Assembly (NCBI GenBank): GCA_017410145.1
Contig: JAFQRJ010000017.1
Location: 1-39,736 of the forward strand
Direction: 5' to 3'
Origin: Tyzzerella sp.
Lineage (GTDB): Bacteria; Bacillota; Clostridia; Lachnospirales; Lachnospiraceae
DNA length: 39,736 nt
The notes below the pieces were generated by a model. It had not been told where the DNA came from. It saw only the letters and a program-made list of their open reading frames with translations, and made no database searches. Shown here piece after piece: positions 8,292-28,842 of the stretch; position 1 is the stretch's first letter, and each line of letters opens with the position of its first letter. Both the position numbers and the translations under genes were made by a program.

Positions 8292-8340
8292 AAAAAGGGT
8301 TATTGCAATTTAATTTATCGCAATAACCCTATTTTCATGT
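8292..8340. repeat. 49-bp repeat, copy 2 (exact inverse of 6202-6250)
   Basis: This is the exact reverse complement of 6202-6250. It contains the same 10-bp stem (8297-8306 with 8320-8329) and follows the yerC stop by 6 nt. Read after yerC the tail is TATTTT, a weaker U-run than copy 1 provides for its gene. Confidence 0.9.
8297..8334 (+). terminator. hairpin terminator after yerC
   Basis: A perfect 10-bp stem with a 13-nt loop is followed by TATTTT. On the minus strand it is followed by five T, so it can act in both directions. Confidence 0.65.
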
Positions 8341-8376: not shown

Positions 8377-8724
8377 TACGGTGTAATCCAAGGCTTATGT
8401 TACTTGCCCCGTAATGTTAAAAGTCTGTTTCCCAAAAATACGGTGCCACTCATGAACTTGATATCCTGCACCGTAGTCTTAATAGTCTGTTTTTCCAAAA
8501 TACGGTGTAACTTATGAAATTTCGTATCCACACCGTAGTTTTCTTGCCAAATCTCTTTCTTTTTACTCAAAGCATCCACAATCTTACTTTGAAATGACAA
8601 TTCTTTTCATTTTACTCCGAATAATTACGGTGTAGAGTCAATAATTTGACTTATGCACCGTAAATTTATAATTTTCATTTTGAAGGCTACGGTGCAAGTT
8701 ACAATTCTCTATTATAACACCGTA
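8377..8724. repeat. array of five 37-nt palindromes TACGGTG...CACCGTA
   Basis: Units start at 8377, 8439, 8501, 8626 and 8688; each is exactly 37 nt, from TACGGTG to CACCGTA (the first has CCCCGTA). The start-to-start distance is 62 nt, and the empty slot near 8563 holds a degenerate unit with CAAAG/CTTTG arms. Linkers are 25 nt; the first two share AGTCTGTTT and CCAAAA and so look duplicated, the others do not. Position 8 of the arms varies in step (C-G, T-A, T-G). This array fills most of the 554-nt gene-free gap 8286-8839 between yerC and the ACT gene. No cas genes are nearby. A second set of units lies at 28660-28842. Confidence 0.88.
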
Positions 8725-8798
8725 ATTCTTACAAAACCGCATGGTTCTAGAACAAATGTTGCCAAGTTAATAACTTCTGTAACAAGTAGTCAAAAAAT

Positions 8799-8827
8799 GT
8801 GCCGGAGAACCACTTAGTCTCCGGCAC
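8799..8827 (-). terminator. terminator of the iorAB-paaK-ACT operon
   Basis: A perfect 10-bp GC-rich stem GTGCCGGAGA/TCTCCGGCAC with a 9-nt loop. On the minus strand it is followed by ATTTTTTGA, and on the plus strand by TTTTG, so it works in both directions. It begins 13 nt after the ACT-gene stop. Confidence 0.9.
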
Positions 8828-8839
8828 TTTTGTTATACA

Positions 8840-28659: not shown

Positions 28660-28842
28660 TACGGTTTGCTTTTTTCAAAATTGTTTTTGCACCGTAGTTT
28701 TTCTTCAAATTAACCTTGGTTCGTTACCCTTTTACGGCGTAATAGTATATTTTCTTTATATCACACCGTAAATCCTAATTTAATAGGAATAAAATGTAAT
28801 AAAAATACGGTGTAAAAACAACATTTTGTTTTCTACACCGTA
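28660..28842. repeat. array of three 37/38-nt palindromes TACGGTG...CACCGTA
   Basis: Units at 28660-28696 (left arm TACGGTT), 28733-28770 (TACGGCG, 38 nt) and 28806-28842 (perfect arms). Starts are 73 nt apart in both steps. The linkers (36 and 35 nt) do not resemble each other or those at 8377-8724. The array fills the 254-nt convergent gap between the SIPPQT gene and prfA. It belongs to the same family as the array at 8377. Confidence 0.85.

Follow-up and report, generated by a model that had tools for sequence, protein, structure and literature searches.

Helically phased palindrome arrays in Lachnospiraceae and a candidate partner protein with a PD-(D/E)XK-type signature

Palindromic units of about 37 bp, set apart by whole turns of the DNA helix, occur as intergenic arrays in a Tyzzerella genome and in other genera of the Lachnospiraceae, and arrays of this kind often lie upstream of the gene for an unnamed protein family. 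These arrays are probably double-stranded docking sites, phased on the helix, for this co-diversifying nuclease-family protein, whose binding is predicted from sequence. Half-sites and protein vary in concert from one species to another, suggesting a hitherto undescribed protein-DNA system.

Results

Two phased arrays in the window

The window (i.e. the whole 39,736-bp stretch that was analysed) belongs to genome G000, a Tyzzerella assembly (Lachnospiraceae) of 1.89 Mb and 67.8% completeness. Its array units and the inverted repeats beside array 1 are as follows.

8292..8334, strand., inverted repeat with 18-nt arms between a Trp_repressor-family gene and array 1; terminator-like, presumed role
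8377..8413, strand., array 1 unit 1; right arm CCCCGTA, one mismatch
8439..8475, strand., array 1 unit 2; match to the unit pattern
8501..8537, strand., array 1 unit 3; match to the unit pattern
8538..8625, strand., array 1 gap of 88 bp; units 3 and 4 are spaced by 125 bp (12 helical turns); no remnant of a unit in the sequence
8626..8662, strand., array 1 unit 4; match to the unit pattern
8688..8724, strand., array 1 unit 5; match to the unit pattern
8792..8834, strand., inverted repeat with 17-nt arms between array 1 and a convergent ACT-domain gene; terminator-like, presumed role
28660..28696, strand., array 2 unit 1; left arm TACGGTT
28733..28770, strand., array 2 unit 2; 38 bp, left arm TACGGCG
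28806..28842, strand., array 2 unit 3; match to the unit pattern

The five 37-nt units of array 1 lie exactly where the original prediction had placed them, with steps of 62, 62, 125 and 62 bp and linkers of 25, 25, 88 and 25 bp; array 2 (28660-28842, three units) is additional to that prediction. The ends TACGGTG...CACCGTA hold in general in array 1, the right arm of the unit at 8377 (CCCCGTA) being the exception. A degenerate unit had also been placed at about 8563. No trace of it was found, as the best of eight registers (8566) is mismatched at 9 of 14 arm positions, with 10 mismatches at 8564 and 11 at 8563, and a lost unit near 8563 is thus suggested by the spacing alone. Constancy of the terminal 7-mers was confirmed but is not confined to them, since position 8 is mostly T/C, position 9 mostly A/G, the flank mostly T and the centre A/T-rich, which gives a half-site consensus of T-TACGGTG-Y-R. 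The window contains the 7-mer TACGGTG 16 times, where 2.3 occurrences would be expected, and a count of 16 was reached in 0 of 100 shuffles.

Array 1 is flanked by convergent genes (Trp_repressor-family and ACT-domain) and array 2 is likewise placed between convergent genes. A convergent-gene rule for array placement was ruled out, as arrays were also found between tandem and divergent genes using simple ORF calls. Rfam gave no match for the window and five further loci. This agrees with the earlier statement that no described family carries this signature, as does a limited literature search (mainly open-access, mostly narrow queries, without preprints), in which no account of this array-protein system was found.

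Units in the genome and genus

The proposed search of the genome and its relatives yielded 42 matches to TACGGTG-N15..40-CACCGTA in G000, every one 36-38 nt long, and 0 to the reversed pattern. Allowing up to two mismatches within fetched stretches, G000 has 69 units at 17 intergenic places (two further profile matches, C23:131096 and C29:42592, are excluded from this count), G009 has 16 units and G008 has 4. Exact units were confined to these three among ten genus genomes. Only the ends are constant among the 69 aligned units, and near-identical repeats of the kind that characterize a CRISPR array were not found. At the gltX-uvrD place an array is present in G000 and G009 and absent from G008, G007 and G005. 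The 34-nt hairpin of G001 and G002 is not a member of the system, there being no unit in L042 and L043. A two-unit TACGGTG array with a 73-bp step and a second right arm of TACCGTA was observed at L019:1330-1439 in a Lachnospiraceae MAG (RGIG7268) from water buffalo.

Arrays in other genera

A profile search gave weak matches in other genera, eight of which were read, and TACGGT-N24/25-ACCGTA arrays were present in several. Across 397 Lachnospiraceae genomes, the pattern TACGGT-N23..27-ACCGTA mostly gave 0-3 matches, like its reversed control, and a few genomes had many. A tandem form of the pattern was present in 8 of 11 genomes tried, with a reversed control of 0 in all 11. For G268, G336 and G341 the simple pattern gave 35, 21 and 7 matches, respectively, and the tandem pattern 0 in all three. 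Six genomes (i.e. G061, G379, G103, G340, G030 and G420) have linkers mostly of 15-16 bp, equal to a 53-bp step or five turns, together with 25-bp linkers (six turns) and gaps of 68-69 and 122 bp where a unit is missing. These TACGGTT arrays of other genera share the geometry of the TACGGTG arrays and their units are mostly 53 bp apart. Contig edges were seen near arrays (L141, L142, L182), with G030:C4 beginning 15 bp and G030:C75 33 bp before one, so short-read assemblies may break at such places and undercount arrays. Contig G379:C5 ends about 300 bp past a gene of the protein family described below.

Spacing in whole helical turns

All 52 steps below 200 bp in G000 fell into narrow classes of 61-64 (19 steps), 71-74 (26), 82-84 (3), 94 (2), 114 (1) and 125 bp (1), with a best period of 10.48 bp and an R of 0.92. 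Addition of G008 and G009 gave 64 steps and an R of 0.925, two isolated chance matches (L021:1410 and L024:5991) having been dropped beforehand. In these Rayleigh values the steps within one array are treated as independent. The array of L021 mixes steps of 62, 73, 73, 62 and 82 bp, indicating that an array is not one duplicated unit. The TACGGTT arrays of other genera gave an R of 0.945 at 10.54 bp for 107 steps. Steps are therefore whole multiples of about 10.5 bp, i.e. whole helical turns. The original prediction had proposed helical phasing at 62 nt and had named random spacing elsewhere as evidence against it; spacing elsewhere is not always 62 bp but is quantised in whole turns, which is a stronger form of that idea.

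Half-sites, middles and linkers

The arms of 76 units form 294 Watson-Crick pairs in their middles, as compared to 294.5 (sd 12) when right halves were re-dealt, and one unit from each of 27 loci of other genera gave an arm pairing of 0.477 against 0.479 expected. Arms without co-variation beyond chance argue for two independent protein half-sites and not for hairpins. The suggestion of an RNA hairpin string was accordingly not supported, and an RNA or cruciform hairpin was rejected in view of these tests, although two of the six window units still give long hairpin stems when folded singly.

Sister genomes G061 and G379 permit a direct comparison, as three of six fetched array places of G061 have a counterpart in G379. 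Within the three shared arrays, 2 of 132 half-site positions were changed as compared to 63 of 271 positions in middles and 30 of 126 in linkers (Fisher 6e-11), with a slight bias in favour of half-sites, as the units of each pair were defined in just one of its two sequences, two mismatches being allowed at most. One shared array pair differs by a whole 53-bp unit. Middles of different loci resembled one another about as much as expected from column composition (z of -3.1 for G061, 0.8 and 2.4 for G379, 1.4 for G420 and -0.1 for G000), leaving a copy-and-paste repeat unsupported, with one of the five sets at a z of 2.4. Half-sites that have barely changed, beside variable middles and linkers and middles that are unlike copies, give the arrays the appearance of selected binding sites and not of mobile-element copies.

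A candidate partner protein family

Clustering of the genes near arrays produced eight clusters present in at least three genomes, one of which adjoins arrays in four genera. This array-adjacent, nameless cluster was followed, and members of three other clusters were scanned. Its proteins are 264-278 aa long (typically about 264), with a fragment in G000. Three full-length proteins gave no match in Pfam or NCBIfam, including to ToxN/CptN/TenpN-type endoribonuclease toxins; no HUH transposase match was returned by any library scanned, and no convincing sequence relative was found in the PDB. One of the three proteins matched PADLOC AbiGi weakly (2e-4) and one matched PADLOC HEAT_CxxC_PD-DEXK at no better than 0.0023.

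An alignment of 62 full-length relatives, which leaves out the broken L194, shows a variable region at residues 1-150 and ten residues invariant in 62/62 (i.e. S158, K159, E161, D192, F193, E207, H208, G210, Y217 and E244). A histidine stands where a lysine is usual after the last acidic residue of the PD-(D/E)XK signature. From this signature, the PADLOC labels and general knowledge, the C-terminal half is read as a putative PD-(D/E)XK-type active site. The same half matches PADLOC PDC-S68 (3.3e-26 to 2.9e-25) and PDC-S69, and large proteins on eight viral contigs (L259-L266) share the C-terminal domain (profile comparison 99.9%, E 1.1e-32). That of L259, the sole one of the eight to be scanned, is 1,255 aa long with SF1 helicase domains. 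PDC-S68 (models of 1202-1273 positions) and the L259 protein thus have this domain in common with the family but are large, whereas the family protein is a stand-alone one of about 264 aa whose N-terminal half is different and whose gene has an array upstream. Full-length relatives were absent from the viral contig collection, and the plasmid collection gave seven records with the C-terminal part alone, on which grounds a phage or plasmid origin was rejected. A fecal record of 4.2 kb from the phage collection matches the protein over 95% of its length, with 32.5% identity.

Within the genus, the family was found in G000, G009, G008, G002 and G004, with an edge piece in G007; G005, G003, G001 and G006 gave no match. 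On contig C1 of G000, a TACGGTG array is followed, after 38 bp that include a ribosome-binding site, by the ATG start codon of a family gene, which ties the TACGGTG arrays, including those of the window, to the family. This gene is broken by stops and leaves model positions 116-212 unmatched. Two other copies in this 68% complete genome look intact, being free of stops, and neither TACGGT nor ACCGTA occurs within 1.5 kb of them. C1 is the exception among the 17 array places of G000, the other 16 being without a family gene among first-look neighbours.

G002 has TTGGAC half-sites at the gltX-uvrD place where G000 and G009 have TACGGTG. Two other G002 arrays have no neighbour gene in common with the compared array loci, so this half-site switch stays a single coincidence. 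On G002:C23 (L066, L246, L286) a family gene is flanked on both sides by clusters of TTGGAC half-sites, for which reason the element is counted as a variant of the same array system; its 61-bp distance is at odds with the usual unit. At four places in G002 the half-sites are laid out symmetrically, at distances near 33/20/61/19/32 (L048, L282, L284 and the second cluster of L286).

Association of arrays with the protein family

The family profile was searched against the 397 genomes, and TACGGT arrays are present in all six that scored best (G340, G420, G030, G061, G103 and G379). As the profile was built from G340, G420 and G030, only G061, G103 and G379 are independent; at least eight matches to TACGGT-N23..27-ACCGTA were present in 3/3 of these and in 4/391 others (Fisher 3.5e-6). 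The proposed search for a co-occurring DNA-binding protein produced a putative partner in this family of about 264 residues. Family matches at 1e-10 extend to 121 of 397 genomes, a much larger number than carry TACGGT arrays. In G158 the tandem pattern is present and the family gave no match at 1e-10, and G382 has the tandem pattern plus a family copy with stops.

Arrays were then sought without a preset motif at 63 family loci (60 newly fetched and three known). Palindrome arrays with at least three units of one word were present at 30 of 63 loci (27 of the 60 new) as compared to 0 of 189 random sequences, which were first-order Markov samples and not exact shuffles. Twenty-eight of the 30 arrays lie upstream of the family gene, 12 of them at most 65 bp from its start; L233 and L234 carry it downstream, and in L224 it lies 46 bp upstream when an alternative listed start is used. 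The other 33 loci had no exact array. Nine of their upstream stretches were read by eye, of which five seem to contain diverged arrays (L183, L184, L186, L191, L201), three were doubtful (L188, L206, L207) and one had none (L196). Modal steps of the 30 array loci gave an R of 0.90; on removal of 19 loci of about 53 bp, the remaining 11 modal steps had a best period of 11.15 and not 10.5 bp. Of 139 individual steps, all but one measured 51-54, 62-64, 73-75 or 85-86 bp or near-multiples of these, the lone exception being a 111-bp step in L214 that is half a turn out.

Half-site words vary by locus (TACGGT, TACGTA, TAATCG, GTCAAC, CAGTTG, GTACCC, GTCCGT, TCCCTG and others), with about 20 different half-sites read by eye in total. 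Proteins at least 60% identical had a 5-letter half-site string in common in 11 of 12 pairs, as compared to 15 of 394 other pairs, the strings having been read by eye from the motif-blind output. Over all pairs, half-site similarity showed a weak trend with N-terminal similarity (label-permutation p 0.056). Close relatives may have array and protein in common by descent and not through recognition. Ten of the 63 loci (L148, L182, L184, L187, L188, L189, L191, L193, L194 and L197) lie downstream of genes that we take to be rplM-rpsI. Gene and array both differ between genera at this one syntenic place, indicating that they diverged in place. In L217 and L227 the family gene is downstream of an EF-Tu-like gene.

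Discussion

A protein-bound phased array, as originally predicted, is well supported by helical quantisation, independent half-sites, few half-site changes and an associated protein family. Each 37-bp unit would present a pair of inverted 7-bp half-sites, separated by about three turns and probably filled by two protomers of a single protein, and the A/T-rich centre between them could bend. Units set at 5, 6, 7, 8 or 9 whole turns would place the bound dimers on one face of the helix, where neighbouring dimers could touch and might bind cooperatively. The partner is most likely the Lachnospiraceae protein of about 264 residues, in which a variable N-terminal half precedes a predicted PD-(D/E)XK-type nuclease domain. 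Its gene is probably autoregulated through the array directly upstream, as the short distance to the start codon in 12 of 30 loci leaves little room for a separate promoter. Dispersed arrays would be further docking sites that may hold the protein on the chromosome, and protein specificity and half-site would shift together between lineages. Autoregulation and sequestration are the favoured candidates for the cellular role. A more speculative version, which we regard as possible but doubtful, is that a catalytically intact nuclease with fast-diversifying specificity might be stored phased and inactive on its own arrays, at its gene and around the chromosome, and be released upon chromosome damage or invasion; the arrays would then be a double-stranded-DNA counterpart of an antitoxin or self-mark.

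An unrelated DNA-binding protein, such as a nucleoid or segregation factor, could own the arrays, with the nuclease family merely sitting beside them. Persistence of arrays in G000 despite the broken copy next to one of them, and the tandem pattern of G158 without a detected family member, fit that reading; it is nevertheless unlikely, given that half-sites track nuclease identity, that arrays of many different half-sites lie upstream of the family gene and that gene and array differ together at the rplM-rpsI-like place. Spread of the arrays through the genome as non-autonomous mobile DNA, moved by the nuclease-family protein in the manner of REP/REPIN elements, would account for extragenic, palindromic, multi-copy units, for an enzyme gene beside a cognate array, for pairs that change together and for the patchy distribution at gltX-uvrD. 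This explanation is quite improbable, as middles carry no clear trace of copying (z -3.1 to 2.4), the arms form no conserved hairpin, the protein lacks an HUH transposase match and half of the fetched G061 array places are common to G379. The least probable alternative, and a very unlikely one, is a type III antitoxin-like RNA repeat, in which the upstream array would be transcribed and its hairpin RNAs would inhibit the protein. Position upstream of a nuclease-like gene and the two window units that fold well as RNA are in its favour, but linkers quantised in turns of the DNA helix, chance-level arm pairing, the 16 of 17 G000 places without a neighbouring family gene and the lack of an Rfam match for the window and five loci all speak against it. 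Terminator-like hairpins within 100 bp before the gene were detected in 0 of 61 loci by an insensitive detector that found merely 2 of 62 after the gene.

The preferred docking-site system resembles known systems in part. Intergenic palindrome arrays are familiar from E. coli as BIME-2, or gyrase-bound REP; their sequence, spacing and candidate partner all differ from those found here. Of the roles suggested in the original prediction, the gyrase/REP-BIME and segregation roles drew no support from the analysis. REP/REPIN sequences and their RAYT (TnpA-REP) enzymes are described as extragenic multi-copy palindromes with the cognate enzyme gene beside a copy and as co-evolved pairs (PMC8266576, PMC3733652, PMC3116915). 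The Lachnospiraceae arrays are likewise extragenic, multi-copy and palindromic, with an adjacent enzyme gene and pairs that change together. REP/RAYT differs in several ways: the partner here carries a PD-(D/E)XK-type signature and lacks an HUH match, the arms are independent half-sites in place of the conserved hairpin of single-stranded REP, units are set at whole helical turns, and no copying of middles from locus to locus is visible. Type III toxin-antitoxin modules (ToxIN) have tandem repeats that encode RNA upstream of a nuclease gene, and a Rho-independent terminator lies between the two (PMC5086642). The upstream position is shared (28 of 30 array loci), whereas here phasing is at the DNA level, arrays are also dispersed and the protein has no Pfam or NCBIfam toxin match. 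Some of the defining features tested were absent for each of the two systems.

The analysis links an unnamed protein family, matched in 121 of 397 genomes, to a cognate DNA array, in the spacing of which the genome itself preserves a record of the helical repeat. Next to REP/RAYT, this would be another instance of a nuclease and a repeat that evolve together. As the half-site tracks protein identity, there would be a natural recognition code to read, and if the arrays restrain a nuclease they would exemplify DNA-based control of a toxic enzyme.
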